Below, one piece after another: positions 24,571 to 56,004 of a stretch of DNA of 64,000 nucleotides. The position numbers were made by a program, and so were the translations under genes. Source of the DNA: Streptosporangium album. GTDB lineage: Bacteria; Actinomycetota; Actinomycetes; Streptosporangiales; Streptosporangiaceae. Every line of letters starts with the position of its first letter. Position 1 is the first letter of the stretch. The DNA is taken from contig NZ_JACHJU010000002.1 of assembly GCF_014203795.1 (NCBI RefSeq), positions 310,001 to 374,000 of the forward strand. The letters run 5' to 3'. Under the pieces are notes generated by a model. It worked only from the letters and a program-made list of their open reading frames with translations. It was not told where the DNA came from and searched no databases.

Positions 24571-24749
24571 GCCGACCGTAACCGGCTGGGCCGCGCGCAG
24601 CGCGCCCTGGCCCGCGCCGTCTCCGACGCCTCCTGGCGGGAGTTGCGCTCCATGCTGGAGTACAAGACGGATTGGTATGGGCGGAAGTCGGTGGTCGTGG
24701 ACCGGTGGTTTCCCTCCTCCAAGCTGTGCTCGGCGTGCGGCGTGATCGC
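24571..24749 (+). pseudogene. Remnant of an IS200/IS605-type TnpB gene
   Basis: Frame-2 translation gives NRLGRAQRALARAVSDASW, ELRSMLEYKTDWYGR, VVVDRWFPSSKLCSACG, the stretch leading to the first CxxC of the TnpB zinc ribbon. The homology stops after CSACGVI; the second CxxC, the last RuvC aspartate and the whole N-terminal two-thirds are absent. No start codon or element ends were found. It is unrelated in sequence to the intact TnpB at 48797-50065, whose equivalent region is different, so it records a separate old insertion. Confidence 0.75.
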
Positions 24750-24814
24750 TCCGTGTGTGAGACGGCGGGCAGGTCGATGGGGACCGGACGCCGCGCGCTG
24801 GCTACCCTTGCGCT

Positions 24815-47260: not shown

Positions 47261-48254
47261 CCTCTCCCTCATCGGACAGTGATCAGCCGTTTCTCTATTG
47301 TCTGGGGGCAATTGATGCCAAAAAGTATATTAAGTATTTTTTGTTGCAAATCGTCTATCGTTCACAAAAACGTGTGAGACCGACGTTACGGTCTGGTTGA
47401 GTTGGGCCTCGTGTCGCTCTTGTTGGGTAAAAATTGACTATGGCCAATGAATCTCTTAGCCCAAACGAGAACGAAACCCGACGATCCCTCGTGGAGCGCC
47501 AGCTCGATCGGGCGGGGTGGAGCCGAGATCAGTTGGTCGACGAGTACGTCATCACGGATGGCAGGATCCTCGCTGCTGGCGGCAGGCCGAGGCGAGGGAT
47601 GAACCTACGTGCTGACTACGTGCTCGAATACCGGCCGGGCGTGCCTGTCGCGGTCGTCGAGGTCAAGCGGACGTCCATCAAGGCGGACGACGGCATCGAG
47701 CAGGCGAAGCGGTATGCGAAAAAGCTGGAGCTGCCCGTCGCCTATGCCACGAACGGCGTGAAGATCTACGAGATCGACCTCAACGTGGGCACGCTCATCG
47801 AGATCGATGACTATCCCTCGCCCGAAGAGCTTTGGGCCCGTTTTCGTCATGCCAAGGGACTCGACGATGAGGCCATCACCGATCTTCTGACCACCCCGTT
47901 CGACCATTCCGTGAAAAATTGGGACAATACTCCAAAAATTCCCCGCTATTATCAGCGGCTCGCTGTAAACAAAGCGGTCGAAGCCATCGGCAGAGGGCAG
48001 GACCGGGTCCTTCTCGTCCTGGCAACCGGCACGGGAAAGACCCTGGTGGCCTACCAGATCGTCAAGAAACTCTGGCAGGCGCGCTGGCCGGAGGGCCGTC
48101 TGCCACGGGTGCTTTATCTGGCCGATCGGAACATCCTTGTAGACCAGCCGAAAGACGAATACTTCGTCAAGGGGTTCGGCGAAGCCGTTCACAAGCTGGG
48201 ACGCGGGATCGCCCAGTCTGGCAGGCATATCTACCCGGTTTCGTCCGTAGTGCT

Positions 48255-48270
48255 CCGGCCTTCAGGCCGG
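48255..48270. repeat. Left-end hairpin of the IS element
   Basis: Six-bp arms CCGGCC/GGCCGG with TTCA loop, 20 bases inside the inferred left end. In this family such hairpins are recognised by TnpA. Confidence 0.7.
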
Positions 48271-48345
48271 GGGTGAAGCGGACTGTCCCGCGTAGCGGGG
48301 CAAGAACAGCCGATTCGCCGCCAGGCGAATCGGCGTCCACCCCGA

Positions 48346-48773
48346 TCAGACCGGCCGTTTCTGCTGCTCGATGTACTGCTTGAGCACGGTCAGGGGTGTC
48401 CCGCGAACCGACCCGGCGAAGTAGGAGCCGGACCAGAAATGCCCGCCCCACAGGTACGTGCGGACGTGGGCGCTGAACTCCTTGCACAGCATCCGCGCCG
48501 AGACCCCCTTCAGCGAGTTGACCAGCTTGGACAGGGCGACCTTGGGTGGGTAGCGGACCAGCGGGTGGACGTGGTCGTCCTCGCCGCTGAACTCGCGAAG
48601 TTCGACCTCGAAGTCGGCACAGACCTCCCGCATGATCTGTTCGCATCGGACCAGCATCGGGTCGGTGAAGGCCCCCTCCGGTACTTGGTGACGAACACCA
48701 AATGGGCGTGGAGGTGGTAGACGACGTGCCGTCCGGTGTACACATCGGGGTTCGGTTTCCATCTCGGTGACAT
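48346..48773 (-). pseudogene. tnpA: Y1 (HUH) transposase TnpA, frameshifted
   Basis: Translation from ATG 48773 gives RHVVYHLHAHLVFVTKYRRG, including the HUH histidines (HAH). The frame breaks in a G run (48672-48676) and continues in another frame as GAFTDPMLVRCEQIMREVCA, DHVHPLVRYPPKVALSKLVN and the catalytic tyrosine in QYIEQQK, ending at 48346. One extra G would restore a normal protein of about 142 residues. The element may thus be immobile without another TnpA, unless the missing base is a sequencing error. Confidence 0.82.
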
Positions 48774-48796
48774 AAACCAAATGATACGATCAGGGT

Positions 48797-50065
48797 GTGG
48801 AGAAGGTGAAGCAGACGCGGGCGCATGTGGCCCGCCTGGAGTTGAGCACAGCCCAGGTGGCGGTGCTGGACGGCCAGGCGCACACCGCCCGCACGCTGTG
48901 GAACCTGCTACACGAGTACTTCACCTTCCGGCAGGGCCGGTTCGCGACGTTGAAGGACTGCGACACCGCGATCCGGGCGGCTCGTCATGAGATCGACTGG
49001 ATAGGCCAACTGCCCGCCCAGGCGGCTCAGGCCGTGCTGAAGACCTACCGGCAGGCGTGGGCGAACTTCTTCAACCCTGATCACCCCGCTAAACGCCCGA
49101 CGTTCAAGGCCCGGTTCGGTTCCCGACCGGCCGTCGATGTGCCTCAGGCTCGCGACCTGCAGATCAAGCGAATCAACCGGCGGTGGGGTGCGGTCAACCT
49201 GCCCAAGGTCGGGCGGGTGCGGTTTCGGTGGACCAAGGACCTGCCCGGCCTCACCAGGGGCGGCCCCGCCGGGCGGATCACGGGAGCGCGGCTGGTCAAG
49301 GATGCTCACGGCTGGCAGGTGGTGTTCCGCACCCAAATTCTCCTCGCGCCGGTCCCTACCGTGCACCCGGGCCACACGGTGGGGATCGACCGGGGGGTCA
49401 CCGTCGCGCTGGCCCTGTCGGACGGCACGATGCGTGAGCACGCCCCCTGGCTCACGCCTGGGGAGAAAGAACACCTGCGCCGGCTGGAGAAGACGTCGGC
49501 TCGCCGGCGTGCGGCCCGGCCGAAGAGGACCCGCCCTTCGGGGCGGGAGCGGCGCACCTACGATCAGATCGCCCGGCTGCGCGCGAAAGCCAAGCGCCGA
49601 GCCGTCGACTGGCAGCACCAGACCACCACCGAACTCGCCGACACGTTCGCTGTGATCAAGGTGGAGAAACTCTCCATTCTCAACATGGTCAAATCCGCCA
49701 AGGGCACGATCGAAGCCCCGGGCAGGAACGTCGCCCAAAAGGCGGGGCTGAATCGGTCGATCAGCGGCGAGGCGTGGGGCCGGACCGTCACCCTGCTCGA
49801 ATACAAGAGTGCCGACCGGGGCGGACAGGTCGTCAAGGTTCCCGCCCCGGGCACCTCACAGACGTGCCACCGATGCGGTCACCGTGATGCGGCCGGCCGC
49901 GACAGAACCGTGTTCGCTTGTACCGACCCCGCGTGCGGTTGGGTCGGCCATGCCGATACCAATGCCGCGATCAATATCAAGAACGCCGTCGGAACGCCGG
50001 TGTCAGGGCGTGGAGACCTCGGGGTTACCCGGTCGGTGAAGCGTCAACCCCCGCGCGCCGCTTAA
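48797..50065 (+). CDS. tnpB: TnpB RNA-guided nuclease (IS605 OrfB)
   Basis: The 422-residue protein has all three RuvC acidic residues: D198 in GIDRGV, E290 in IKVEKLS and D387 in GHADTNAAINI, plus a zinc ribbon (C357, C360, C375, C380). Helix-turn-helix and wedge regions are expected in residues 1-190. TnpB proteins of this kind cut DNA next to a short motif, guided by a transcript from the element's right end, which keeps the element in the population. No lesion is visible, so it could be active although its TnpA is broken. GTG at 48797 is the likely start. Confidence 0.93.
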   Translation: MEKVKQTRAHVARLELSTAQVAVLDGQAHTARTLWNLLHEYFTFRQGRFATLKDCDTAIRAARHEIDWIGQLPAQAAQAVLKTYRQAWANFFNPDHPAKRPTFKARFGSRPAVDVPQARDLQIKRINRRWGAVNLPKVGRVRFRWTKDLPGLTRGGPAGRITGARLVKDAHGWQVVFRTQILLAPVPTVHPGHTVGIDRGVTVALALSDGTMREHAPWLTPGEKEHLRRLEKTSARRRAARPKRTRPSGRERRTYDQIARLRAKAKRRAVDWQHQTTTELADTFAVIKVEKLSILNMVKSAKGTIEAPGRNVAQKAGLNRSISGEAWGRTVTLLEYKSADRGGQVVKVPAPGTSQTCHRCGHRDAAGRDRTVFACTDPACGWVGHADTNAAINIKNAVGTPVSGRGDLGVTRSVKRQPPRAA

Positions 50066-50115
50066 CCGCGACGCGACGGGAGAGTCTCCGGCCCCCAGGC
50101 CGGGGAGGAGTTCAA
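49950..50115 (+). ncRNA. Predicted right-end guide RNA (omega/reRNA) scaffold of TnpB
   Basis: In characterised elements the scaffold overlaps the tnpB 3' end and runs to the right boundary; the following bases act as guide. Here the tnpB tail, the 50-base spacer and the CCGGCC hairpin (50088-50103) fit. If the boundary is 50115, the guide starts CAGTCACTCGACAGGCAGG, copied from hsdR itself. Only the hairpin is directly visible; the 5' end of the RNA is a guess. Confidence 0.4.
50088..50103. repeat. Right-end hairpin of the IS element
   Basis: Six-bp arms CCGGCC/GGCCGG with CCCA loop, about 12 bases inside the inferred right end; same arms as the left-end hairpin. Confidence 0.7.
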
Positions 50116-51777
50116 CAGTCACTCGACAGGCAGGGCAGGCAGACCTCCGGTGACACCACCGCGCTCTTCGAGAAGTTCTCCAAGGACTTCTTCGACCTCA
50201 TCGTCGTTGACGAGTGTCACCGGGGCAGTGCGAAGGACAACTCGAACTGGCGGAAGATCCTGGACCACTTCGACTCCGCAGTCAAGATCGGCCTCACGGC
50301 GACGCCTATCAGCGAGAAGGACGCCGACACTTACGAGTACTTCGGCAGGCCGGTCTACGAGTACTCCCTGCGGAACGGGATCGACGACGGGTTCCTCGCC
50401 CCCTACCGGGTACGCCGGGTGAACATCAACATCGATGTCGAGGGCTGGGAGCCACAGCCGGGCCAGCTCGACAACTACGGCAACCTCATCCCAGAACGGG
50501 AGTACAACCAGCCTGACTTTGAGAAGACCATGCTGATCAAGGAGCGCACCGAGGTCGCGGCCCAGTATCTGACGGACCTGCTGCACGAGACCGGCCGGAT
50601 GAACAAGACCGTCGTCTTCTGCGTCGACTCCGACCATGCCAGCCGGATGCGCATTGCGCTGCACAACCTCAACCGGGACCTGTCCCGGCAGTACGGCGGT
50701 GACTACGTCGTCCGGGTCACCTCCAGGGACGGCGACCCTGGCCTCGCGCATCTCGACGAGTTCAAGAAGGTCGACTCCGACGCACCGGTGATCGCCGTGA
50801 CGTCGAGGCTGCTCTCGACCGGGGTGGACATGCCGATGGTCCGCAACGTTGTGATCTTCCGGCCCATCGGTTCCACGACCGAGTTCAAACAGATCGTGGG
50901 ACGCGGCACGAGGCTGTTCCCCGACAAGGACAAGTTCAGCTTCGACATCATCGACTTCGTGTACGCCACCAGGAAGTTCAACGATCCGGAGTTCGACGGC
51001 CCTCCTGTTCGCCGCTATGAGGTCAAGATCGACGACGATGGACACGCGGTCGAGAACGCCGAAGACGACCTCACCGACGAGCACTCGCATGTCGCCGAGC
51101 CTCACGTCGACTACGAGGAGCAGGAAGGCGGCATCCTCGACCCTGCCGAGGAAATGAGCGACGACGAGCTGATCTCGACCTTGACCACGCGGGCACGCAA
51201 ATACTATGTCGACGGCCAAGACGTGTTCATCTGGAACGACACCCTCTACGTCATGGACGACGACAGCGGCCGGCCCAAGATGATCGAATACCGTGTGTTC
51301 GCCGGTGACCGGGTCCGCAAGCTGAACCTCAGCCCGATGGAGTTGCGAGGCCAGTGGGCACGCGCCGGTTCGCGGTCGACGATCCTTCGGACGCTTGAAG
51401 AACAGGGCGTCGACTTCAAGGTGCTGGCTGAGCAGATGAGCGACCATGACGCCGACCCGCTCGATCTGCTGCTCGCTGCGGCGTGGGAGTTTCCCGCCAT
51501 GACGCGTAGGGAGCGGGCACGCCGGGTGCGCCGAGAGCACCGGGAGTTCCTCGAATCCTTCGCGGAGGACGCCCGGGAGATCCTGGAGCTCATCTTGGAC
51601 AAGTACATCGAGCACGGTCCGGTCGAGTTGAGGCCCACGGTGCTGACTCTCCCGCCGCTCAGAGATCTGGGCAGCCCGTCGGAGCTGGCGGTCCGTTTCG
51701 GTGGAGGAGAGAAGCTCCGGGAGATCCTGGACAGGCTGGGAGAACACGTCTACGACGCAGCTTAACTATAATTCACT

Positions 51778-51847: not shown

Positions 51848-52465
51848 ATGCTGATCGAGCGGGAGCTGTGGCCGCAGAACAGGCGCCGTGACAAGCTTTG
51901 GGAGCTCGCCGCAGGCCAGAGGGGTTATTTCACCGCCGCCCAGGCCGTTGAGGCGGGCTACTCCCATCAGGCTCAGCGTTTCCACGCTCAGCGAGGCAAC
52001 TGGCTGCACATCGATCGGGGGCTCTACCGGCTCCGCGAGTTCTCCGTGCTGCCCGGTGACGATCATGACTATCTCGTCCGATGGTGGCTCTGGAGCAAGA
52101 GGCGGGCTGTAGTCTCACACGTCAGTGCGCTGGCCGTCCATGATCTCGGGATCGCGAACCCGGAGGAGATTCATCTGACGGTCGGACCGGGATTCCGGCA
52201 GAAAAACCAGCAGATCGTGCTTCACCACGCCGAGCTGCGGCCAGAGGAGATCGAGGATCGCGAGGGTTTCAGAGTGACCACGCCACTTCGGGCGATCGCC
52301 GAATCAGCCGCCGACGCGGTGGACCAGGACATGATCGATTCCGCTGTCGCCGAGCTTCTGGAGCGTGGCGAGACCACCCGTGGCTGGCTTCTTCGCGCGG
52401 CTCAGTATCTCGGAGAACGCGCCGAGCTGGGCGTCGAGCGCGCTCTGAGGGCGGAGAAGGCGTGA
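51848..52465 (+). CDS. AbiEi-family antitoxin/transcriptional regulator
   Basis: The 205-residue protein has an N-terminal winged helix (GYFTAAQAVEAGYSHQAQRF, GNWLHIDRGLYRL) and the AbiEi C-terminal domain (VSHVSALAVHDLGIANPEEI, TTPLRAIAE). AbiEi proteins repress the abiE operon and neutralise AbiEii by a non-contact (type IV) mechanism. Its stop overlaps the abiEii GTG by four bases. It is intact although its toxin partner is not. Confidence 0.85.
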   Translation: MLIERELWPQNRRRDKLWELAAGQRGYFTAAQAVEAGYSHQAQRFHAQRGNWLHIDRGLYRLREFSVLPGDDHDYLVRWWLWSKRRAVVSHVSALAVHDLGIANPEEIHLTVGPGFRQKNQQIVLHHAELRPEEIEDREGFRVTTPLRAIAESAADAVDQDMIDSAVAELLERGETTRGWLLRAAQYLGERAELGVERALRAEKA

Positions 52466-52740
52466 CCCGATACCGCAGTGCGGTCTCGCTACGCCAGGCA
52501 CTGGAGAGCAGGCTCAAGGATCAGGCCGACACCAACGGCACCGACCTCGGCAGGCTCCGCCGCAGGGTTCTCTTCGAGCGTGTGGCGGCTCGCCTGTCCA
52601 CGTTCCGGCCCGGCCGCTGGGTCCTCAAGGGCGGCGCGGTCATGGAGTTCCGGCTTCTGGACCGCGCGAGGGCCACCAAGGATCTCGACCTGGCGATCCG
52701 ATCGAAGACCTCGACCAAAATGGCGAGCTGGGTGTCGTAA
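52462..52740 (+). pseudogene. AbiEii nucleotidyltransferase toxin, 3'-truncated
   Basis: The frame contains the AbiEii N-terminus and the nucleotidyltransferase core: WVLKGGAVMEFRLLDRARAT and KDLDLAIRSK, giving GG and DxD residues. Homology stops near 52700-52712, where the sequence becomes the antisense of a DUF262 gene; a stop follows at 52738. Normal AbiEii proteins are 250-300 residues, so two thirds are missing, including the third catalytic aspartate/lysine region. The toxin should be inactive. Confidence 0.85.
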
Positions 52741-53789
52741 GGCAGTGTCCTGGACGAGGGGGTCCTGATCTCCGTCACCAGGAAGTCGACCGCACGGCTG
52801 GCGGCCTCCTTCGTCTTCTCGATCGCCTCTTTCAGCTTGGGCTTGGGCAGCTTTCGGATCTGCTCGGTATCGCCGCGCGAGTAACCGAATCCGGCGGTGG
52901 CGGCTATGGCGCGCAGCATCACCTTGGGGTCGAGGTCCCCGTAGCGTTTCCGGCGCAGGACCTCCTTGATCTCGTCGATCGAGTCCAGCAGGTCGAAGTC
53001 CGGCGTCCAGGTGGCGGCTCTCATGAACTCCACGAGGGTCAGGTCCGTCCCCGTGGTGTTGATGCGCTCGAAGACGAGGCCGATCTCCTCGATCGACATG
53101 TCCCGTAGCGTCACGGTCGCGATCTGGTAGTTCGCGAACCGGTTGTAGAGCAGCCTCGCTCGCTGTTTCAGCTCTTCGTCGGCGACCCGCTCCAGCCGTA
53201 CGACGAACTCCGCTCCGTCGAGAAGGAACCGCAGCGGGAACTGCGTCGGCGGGGGTTCCTCGAAGTCGTCCCGGTGGTGGAAGGTGCCCTCGGTGAGGTC
53301 GTAGACGATGTTCCACGGACTCTTCGGGTCGCCGTCGGGCTCCCAGTAGAGCGCGCCGCAGATTGTGGACAGTCGTTGCTGGCCGTCGAGCAGGTAGTTG
53401 ACGTGGCGGCCACTCGGCAACGAGTCGACTTCCAGGTCCGCGATCGCTCTTTCACTGGCCAGTTCCTGGTCGCTCTCCCACAGCAGGATGCTGCCGATCG
53501 GATAGTTCCTCGCCACGGAGTCGAGCAGGTTCAGGATCTGCTGGCGCGACCAGACGAACTCTCGTTGGAACTTGGGCAGCACGATGCGGCCCGCGAGAAT
53601 GTCGTCGGCGACGGTGACAAGCCTTGGTGTCGAAGGCTCGGGATCGCGGGGAAGCTGCCTGCGAGGAGATGAACGCTGCACTGGTTCTCCGGGAAGACGA
53701 CGTCGAGGGGATGAATGTGACAAAGAGGGAGGGGCGTGTCCAGGCGTTGGTGATCGCGCTGCCAGGATCGCGCCTCCCCCGTCGGTCAT
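52521..53789 (-). pseudogene. DUF262 (GmrSD N-terminal-like) protein, 3'-truncated
   Basis: The DUF262 core is clear: LPKFQREFVWSRQQILNLLD, DGQQR in YLLDGQQRLSTICGALYW, and FERINTTGTDLTLVEFMRAA. Homology runs to about LPYDTQLAILVEVFD near 52705; the remaining frame to 52521 is antisense AbiEii sequence, so the natural C-terminus is lost. DUF262 proteins of this length usually stand alone or pair with DUF1524; this one has no HNH part. ATG at 53789 is a tentative start, as no good ribosome site is seen and the first 55 residues are low-complexity. It lies directly after the longer DUF262 gene, probably in one operon. Confidence 0.75.
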
Positions 53790-53796
53790 TTGAACA

Positions 53797-56004
53797 TCAT
53801 GAGCCGGCCTTCGGCAGACCACGGTTGAGGACCTCGTCGCGGAGACGCTTCAGCGCGACCGCGACACCGTCGCGTTCGATCCGCCAGACATCCCAGCCCG
53901 CACACGCCTTCGTCCCGGCGACCGCGGCCCCGGCGGCGGACAGGGAGTGGAAGGCCTCGCCCGTCTCCAGCCTGATCGCTCCGTCCGCCTCGACGGTGGC
54001 GAAGTGGACCACGCCTCTGACCGTCCGGAAGATCTTGGCGTCCGGTTTCATCAAGCCGTTCCTGATCAGGTCGAGAAGCTCGACGCCGTAGCGCGTGGAA
54101 CGGCGCCGGGACGCGGCCGGCTCGGGGACGACGACAGTGATCTTCGGCAGCCGGAAGCCGAGCCTGGCCGGGCTCCAGACCTCCTCGCAGAGGAGCCGGT
54201 AGAGGTTCTGCCGCTGCTCGATCTCCTGGACGCCGAACTCCTGGCAGGGCCGGAACGCCAGGTCGAGGCCGGCGGCTCTGAGGTAGTGGGTGAACGGGGT
54301 GTTGCGCAGGCGGCTCTTGGGGTGCAGGGAGGCCGCGAGCCGGTTCTCGGCGTAGTAGTGCTCAAGCTTCTGCCCGTAGGGGTCGTCCCGGAAGCTCGCG
54401 TTGACAGACTTGGGCAGGAGCAGCAGGGCGCCGAGGCGGTTGCGCCAGAGGTCGAACTCCGCGGGGGTCCTGACGGCGTCCGTGTGCCGCTCGAAACGGT
54501 TGGCCCAGATGTGCTCGATCTCGTAGTCGCGGGGTCCCCGGAGGAACTCGTAATCGTGCTCTCCCCCCTCGCACGCGCGCTGGACGTGGGCGGTCATGCG
54601 CGAGAGCAGGTAGCGGATCAGGCGGCGGTTGTTCGCCCGGAGGCCGAAGGACGCGATCTCGCGGAAGTCGTGCTCCAGCAGGGAGGCCTCCCGGCCGAGG
54701 ACGGTGGCGACCGCCTCGGCCGTCCGGCAGATCCGCAGGACCGGGATCAGCCGGTGGATGATCTCGTCAAGGTCGCGGCGCTGCACGGGCAGGTTGTTGA
54801 CGCACCGCCGTACGTAGACGAGGTCGAGGAACGCCGCGGCCATCGAGCACTTCTCGGTGAACGCCTGGTCGGTGTCCTCGGGGGAGACGACGGAGAGCAG
54901 GAGCGTGAACTGGTTGTCGATGCCGTTGTAGCCGTTGAAGAAGACGGCGGCGAGCTCGGGCCTGAACTCCCGGCAGGCCCGGAGCAGGACGCGGTAGCGC
55001 TCGGACGCGTCCGTGAGCTTCCCGATGAACTCCCGCGCGCCGGCTGGCCGGTCGATCCCCAGCTGGATCTCGTTGCGCAGGATCCACTCGTGAACGGCCC
55101 GCCCGATCTCGGCGGCGTCGGTGGACGTCTCGTCGAAGTGCGCGTACTGCGCCAGGAGGAAGGAGCGGACGTAGGCGCTGGGCGTGCTGGCCTCGGGAGA
55201 GTCCGTCTCCGCGGAGGTGAGACGGGCCAGCATGTCGGCCCACGACCTGCCCAGCTCCTCGCGCGTCTGCGGGTTGACCCGCCGGAACAGGTGGCCTTTC
55301 AGCAGGTCGACGTGGCTCAGCCGGAGTCCCCGGTCGTTCATGGACACGAAGATCTCGCGTCCGTTCTCCTGGTCGAGGGCCTGGATGCCGACCAGGCACA
55401 CGCGGTCGAGCAGCCACCGGACGAAGGGCACCAGGGCCTCGCCGCGCAACACCTCGGGGAAGTCGCCGTCGATCTCCCTGCTCCGGTCGTGGAGATTTCT
55501 CACGGAGACATGGGCGTCGTCGGACAGCGTGAATCCCTTGAGGTCGTTCCAGTCGGTGACCAGGGCGTTGAGAAGCTGCGCGCGGGCCAGCTCCTCGGAG
55601 CTGCCGACCTTGAAGCTCCGTCTGCCGTGCCGGGCCGTGTAGGTGAGCCCCTCCAGCTCATCGGCGTAGATCCACTTCTCCTGGTCGATCAGCAGCTGCC
55701 GGAGGTAGATCAGCAGGAGGTGGAGCGTGGTGACGCGCTGCTGGCCGTCGACGAGGAAGGTACGGCCGTCGCTCTCGTGGTAGACGTAGGGACCGAGGAA
55801 GTAGGGGGCGTAGCCGTTGACCTCGTCGCGTTCGTGCAGGGGGTTCCACTGGCTCAGGAACCGGTGGCTGAGGTCGTCGATCAGAGTGCGGACCTCGTCA
55901 CGGGTCCAGGTGTACTCCCGCTGGTAGTAGTCCAGTGCGAAGGAGTTCTTCCTGAAGAGGTTGTGGACCGTTACACCTTCGCTGTGAATGGGACTGTCCG
56001 CCAT
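53797..56004 (-). CDS. GmrSD-like DUF262-DUF1524 restriction protein with C-terminal RAMA-like domain
   Basis: The 735-residue protein begins with a DUF262 ParB-like NTPase domain: FALDYYQREYTWTRDE, D86-G-Q-Q-R90 and IFVSMNDRGLRLSHVDLLKG. DUF1524 with an HNH-like nuclease core is at about residues 440-600: RDYEIEHIWANRF, NRLGALLLLPKSVNASF. Residues 635-720 (GVELLDLIRNGLMKPDAKIF, GVVHFATVEADGAIRLETGE, HSLSAAGAAVAGTKACAGWD) resemble RAMA, a domain found in restriction and methyltransferase proteins. GmrSD and BrxU are type IV restriction enzymes that cut modified DNA. All key residues appear intact, so this may be the only working defence gene of the island besides AbiEi. Confidence 0.85.
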   Translation of the reverse strand: MADSPIHSEGVTVHNLFRKNSFALDYYQREYTWTRDEVRTLIDDLSHRFLSQWNPLHERDEVNGYAPYFLGPYVYHESDGRTFLVDGQQRVTTLHLLLIYLRQLLIDQEKWIYADELEGLTYTARHGRRSFKVGSSEELARAQLLNALVTDWNDLKGFTLSDDAHVSVRNLHDRSREIDGDFPEVLRGEALVPFVRWLLDRVCLVGIQALDQENGREIFVSMNDRGLRLSHVDLLKGHLFRRVNPQTREELGRSWADMLARLTSAETDSPEASTPSAYVRSFLLAQYAHFDETSTDAAEIGRAVHEWILRNEIQLGIDRPAGAREFIGKLTDASERYRVLLRACREFRPELAAVFFNGYNGIDNQFTLLLSVVSPEDTDQAFTEKCSMAAAFLDLVYVRRCVNNLPVQRRDLDEIIHRLIPVLRICRTAEAVATVLGREASLLEHDFREIASFGLRANNRRLIRYLLSRMTAHVQRACEGGEHDYEFLRGPRDYEIEHIWANRFERHTDAVRTPAEFDLWRNRLGALLLLPKSVNASFRDDPYGQKLEHYYAENRLAASLHPKSRLRNTPFTHYLRAAGLDLAFRPCQEFGVQEIEQRQNLYRLLCEEVWSPARLGFRLPKITVVVPEPAASRRRSTRYGVELLDLIRNGLMKPDAKIFRTVRGVVHFATVEADGAIRLETGEAFHSLSAAGAAVAGTKACAGWDVWRIERDGVAVALKRLRDEVLNRGLPKAGS

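Follow-up and report, generated by a model that had tools for sequence, protein, structure and literature searches.

Elements of the IS200/IS605 family usually insert at no cost of target DNA. One of the closest described systems is ISDra2/TnpB of Deinococcus radiodurans, which combines tnpA and tnpB, with an RNA region at the right end, an insertion motif (TTGAT) that acts as the TAM and a guide taken from the flank (PMC8612924). For TnpB elements in general, insertion motif and TAM are reported to coincide and the right flank to provide the guide, so that the donor joint is cut (PMC8612924; PMC11870625). IS608 of Helicobacter pylori inserts 3' of the tetranucleotide TTAC, which shares its final TAC with the motif found here, and possesses the right cleavage motif TCAA; its TnpA is reported to prefer C at position +1 (PMC5934647). 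On the side of the target gene, the solved type I HsdR 3h1t, which contains EcoEI_R_C, displays the same HSDR_N and helicase domains as the gene described here, and matches HsdR of Streptosporangium subroseum, a species of the same genus as the host of the element, with an E-value of 1.5e-173.

The window, i.e. the whole stretch of 64,000 nucleotides that was analysed, contains what is very probably an ordinary IS200/IS605 element (tnpA plus tnpB), inserted 3' of TCTAC in a partnerless type I restriction gene and expected to encode a TnpB of the homing type. In contrast to 3h1t, hsdR of the window is split by the element, falls four residues short at the joint and is not adjoined by hsdM and hsdS. 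The locus is composed of the following features:

47440..48234, plus strand: 5' part of hsdR, with Pfam matches to PF04313 (HSDR_N), PF13588 and PF04851 (ResIII), the latter being the start of the helicase domain.
48230..48234, plus strand: left flank TCTAC, which is predicted to be the target of TnpA as well as the TAM of TnpB; the motif is also present at the left ends of sister copies.
48235..50115, plus strand: IS200/IS605-type element of 1,881 bp; two more full-length relatives in the same genome are 89% identical and share its ends.
48346..48780, minus strand: tnpA (Y1 transposase), frameshifted around 48672-48678; PF01797 is matched from profile position 19 on, with the N-terminus in another frame.
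48797..50065, plus strand: tnpB, 422 codons, with PF07282 and PF01385; catalytic residues and zinc ribbon are kept.
49229..49267, no strand: recombination breakpoint zone inside tnpB, resembling copy L010 to the left and copies L012 and L013 to the right.
49966..50115, plus strand: right end, predicted omega-RNA scaffold with the terminus TTCAA; 18 sequences with a mean column identity of 89%, a common fold and weak covariation.
50116..50135, plus strand: predicted guide, consisting of hsdR codons and adjoining the right end.
50116..51765, plus strand: 3' part of hsdR, with Pfam matches to PF08463 (EcoEI_R_C), PF04851 (ResIII) and PF00271 (Helicase_C).

Assignment to the IS200/IS605 family is based on a Y1 (HUH) transposase gene (PF01797, 112 bits), present though frameshifted, on a TnpB with the RuvC D-E-D residues and a zinc ribbon, and on a constant short motif 5' of the insertion without target duplication, no flank being repeated at the joint. 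The proposed flank pair CTAC/TCAA was confirmed: CTAC precedes the element and TCAA ends it, the right end reading GAGTTCAA and TCTAC adjoining the left side. Among 34 loci examined, 21 lacked an alignment from element base 1 and were excluded; the remaining 13 left ends are all preceded by CTAC and nine of them by TCTAC. In 11 of these 13 copies, all from other genomes (the two others being L010 and L011), the left boundary is uncertain by one base, since C is the first aligned base. L012 and L013, which possess a different left end, likewise sit behind TCTAC. At the opposite end, 35 loci were examined; 17 of them could be aligned as far as the right terminus, a selection that leans towards conservation, and all 17 end in TCAA. 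The motif thus differs from that of either described element, with TCTAC in place of TTGAT of ISDra2 and CTAC or TCTAC in place of TTAC of IS608.

The element had been called intact, which holds for tnpB but not for tnpA. As predicted, TnpB retains Asp198, Glu290 and Asp387 together with the zinc ribbon (Cys357, Cys360, Cys375 and Cys380). Its relatives in the PDB are 9j09 (E-value 2.3e-25) and, with E-values of only about 2e-21, 8h1j and 8bf8, which we take to be ISDra2 TnpB chains. A further difference to ISDra2 is the frameshift in tnpA. The underlying one-base gap is common to the window element, L010 and L011, and absent from L012, L013 and L014. Since its own tnpA is frameshifted, the element would probably need a transposase from another copy for movement; judged by its open reading frame of 191 codons, tnpA of L014 could act in trans.

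Identity between the window element and L010 amounts to 99% over the left 1,006 bp and to 89% over the whole element. At informative sites, defined as ungapped positions where L012 equals L013 and both differ from L010, the window element follows L010 at 207 of 215 sites up to 49228, and L012/L013 at 172 of 179 sites from 49250 onwards. Judged from these sites, it is a mosaic: two lineages resident in the genome have contributed to it, and the crossover lies within tnpB. Single-flank searches for the empty sites of two resident copies found none: for L010, the matches listed outside its own place are paralogues of at most 79% identity that stop short of the junction, and for L013 one match of 142 bases (74%) begins 8 bases from the junction, at a locus where the left flank is missing. 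PF07282 is matched 31 times in the genome. Seven of the TnpB matches (L001 to L007), with frames of 383 codons and near-equal scores, apparently constitute a separate high-copy family. A short TnpB fragment (PF07282 positions 1-38) is located at about 24634-24762 of the window.

Removal of 48235-50115 joins the hsdR flanks into a single open frame of 814 codons with zero internal stops, as the original prediction had stated. The accompanying claim of a gene free of any further lesion proved wrong. Uninterrupted hsdR alleles were compared from S. subroseum, Nonomuraea antri, Planomonospora sp. and N. glycinis (L066); the scan comprised five loci, with the joint covered by L063 to L066 and not by L067. 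Each of these four alleles, three of them with TCTAC next to the target, carries 12 bp more at the joint. Where the joined window gene encodes IYQSL, all four relatives have IYFALYQSL spanning the joint and 3h1t has IYFAIYQSI; in the wider context, HIYQSL of the window stands against HIY or DIY followed by FALYQSL in L063 to L066. In an alignment of five rows, the window row shows three gaps, one at the start, one of the four joint residues and one of two residues in common with L064 and L066, so that the gap at the joint is the sole internal gap private to the window. A clean, lesion-free insertion is ruled out by the relatives' alleles, this alignment and 3h1t. Among 15 other genomes of the genus examined, a full-length hsdR relative was found in one, that of S. 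subroseum (79%). The allele of N. glycinis may itself be broken, because the open stretch around the joint there comprises 341 codons only. That the insertion is recent, as originally proposed, is plausible.

At the DNA level, the 12 bp in L064, L065 and L066 follow one TCTAC, end in a second TCTAC and are succeeded by CAGTC, as is the joint in the window. The allele of S. subroseum has TTTAT in place of the second TCTAC. To judge by these alleles, the ancestor probably had two TCTAC motifs, of which one is now found in the window. Measured against four relatives of other species, 12 bp of target are absent at this joint of an IS200/IS605 element.

Several routes could have led to this loss. 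TnpA may have used both motifs, attaching the left end of the element to the first TCTAC while its right end was joined to the DNA that follows the second; the piece may have been lost by slippage between the two TCTAC repeats; or the element may have been excised from the upstream motif and then reinserted. Because TnpA of IS608 prefers C, the second TCTAC, which is followed by C, fits the +1 preference better than the first, which is followed by T. It is rather unlikely, though conceivable, that TnpA of this family can bridge two nearby target motifs and delete the DNA in between in a single event, which would give rise to small, exact, motif-bounded deletions while keeping TAM and guide register in working order. 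Loss by slippage prior to insertion, with the element subsequently hitting the remaining motif, is a tentative but serious alternative. The missing piece corresponds to one repeat plus spacer, and with six TCTAC motifs in the joined hsdR, both strands counted, coincidence of the two events by chance would be expected in about one of six cases. However, the loss is the sole window-only internal indel and is situated exactly at the insertion, and the missing residues are conserved, 3h1t deviating by a single change. A search of the literature on TnpB/hsdR insertion, IS605/IS608 deletion and TnpB homing, covering titles and abstract openings, yielded no report of such a case, which does not prove its absence.

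The element lies 3' of TCTAC within hsdR. By analogy to the published systems, the stretch past its right end would supply the guide portion of the RNA of TnpB, and TnpB would cut the joint left by excision, so that the element could be copied back (homing). In the common fold of the right end, 3 of 41 pairs show two-sided changes, and comparison with Rfam gave zero matches at the gathering score; two matches below threshold were taken as chance. The first 16 bases of the predicted guide have one perfect match in the genome, namely the flank from which the guide derives. On the model of the published elements, excision would leave a joint that represents a TAM-bearing guide match.

From the identity of the guide with hsdR codons, the original prediction concluded that the TnpB of a cleanly inserted element would cut uninterrupted hsdR alleles and thereby maintain the disruption of this restriction gene. 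The identity itself holds, and of the four relatives' alleles three have TCTAC adjoining the target. Nevertheless, this reading is improbable. The 20-base guide has five mismatches to L063, four to L064, three to L065 and four to L066, position 6 being mismatched in each of them, and the allele of S. subroseum lacks the TAM at this site; moreover, a second perfect guide match is absent from the genome, 12 bp are missing at the joint, and hsdM and hsdS are not located beside hsdR. A guide aimed at hsdR is nothing special, because by the published model TnpB guides match their own flank. The idea of an hsdR-specific guide was therefore rejected in favour of the general homing model, which covers such a match.

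The description of hsdR as an orphan is correct for the locus, which lacks cognate hsdM and hsdS. N6_Mtase and Methylase_S matches are absent from its contig (C2); the six N6_Mtase and two Methylase_S matches of the genome all lie elsewhere, both Methylase_S loci being situated on contig C3 near N6_Mtase matches. Within this genome, HsdM of S. subroseum is matched at best with 32% identity, over residues 155-389. In S. subroseum, hsdR is followed by hsdM (N6_Mtase, HsdM_N) and hsdS (Methylase_S). L064 and L065 have an HsdM-type frame after hsdR, and the next frame of L064 appears hsdS-like by eye, with no Pfam match. Downstream of hsdR in the window are an AbiEi-like gene (below the Pfam cut-off), an AbiEii-like gene and a GmrSD-like gene. 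The AbiEii-like frame (52462-52740) comprises 92 codons only and covers profile positions 13-42 of 238; the GmrSD_N gene (52521-53822) is convergent, overlaps this frame and lacks GmrSD_C. Both genes look truncated, which suggests a worn defence island.

R subunits are expected to be inactive in the absence of M and S, and the insertion may therefore have no phenotype. Since hsdM and hsdS do not adjoin hsdR and the joint is four residues short, a role in restriction is doubtful. There is close to an even chance that loss of hsdM and hsdS had rendered the hsdR module useless beforehand, and that the element struck neutral DNA. Such a history would agree with the gene order, as LeuA-type genes are found upstream of hsdR both in the window and in S. 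subroseum, followed downstream by hsdM and hsdS in the latter and by AbiE-like and GmrSD-like genes here. On the other hand, the M and S loci on contig C3 might serve this HsdR in trans, and long decay is not seen in the codon changes: the window-only changes (60 synonymous, 27 non-synonymous) are not clearly different from those of the relatives (58∶15, 64∶23 and 27∶24).

The insertion is thus an ordinary one for its family, apart from a few hsdR bases missing exactly at the landing point. A story of hsdR-specific control is unnecessary. An insertion that looks clean from one sequence, being in frame and free of stops, can hide a loss which becomes visible only via relatives. If the deletion between two motifs were the doing of TnpA, it would represent a small new outcome for single-strand transposition.
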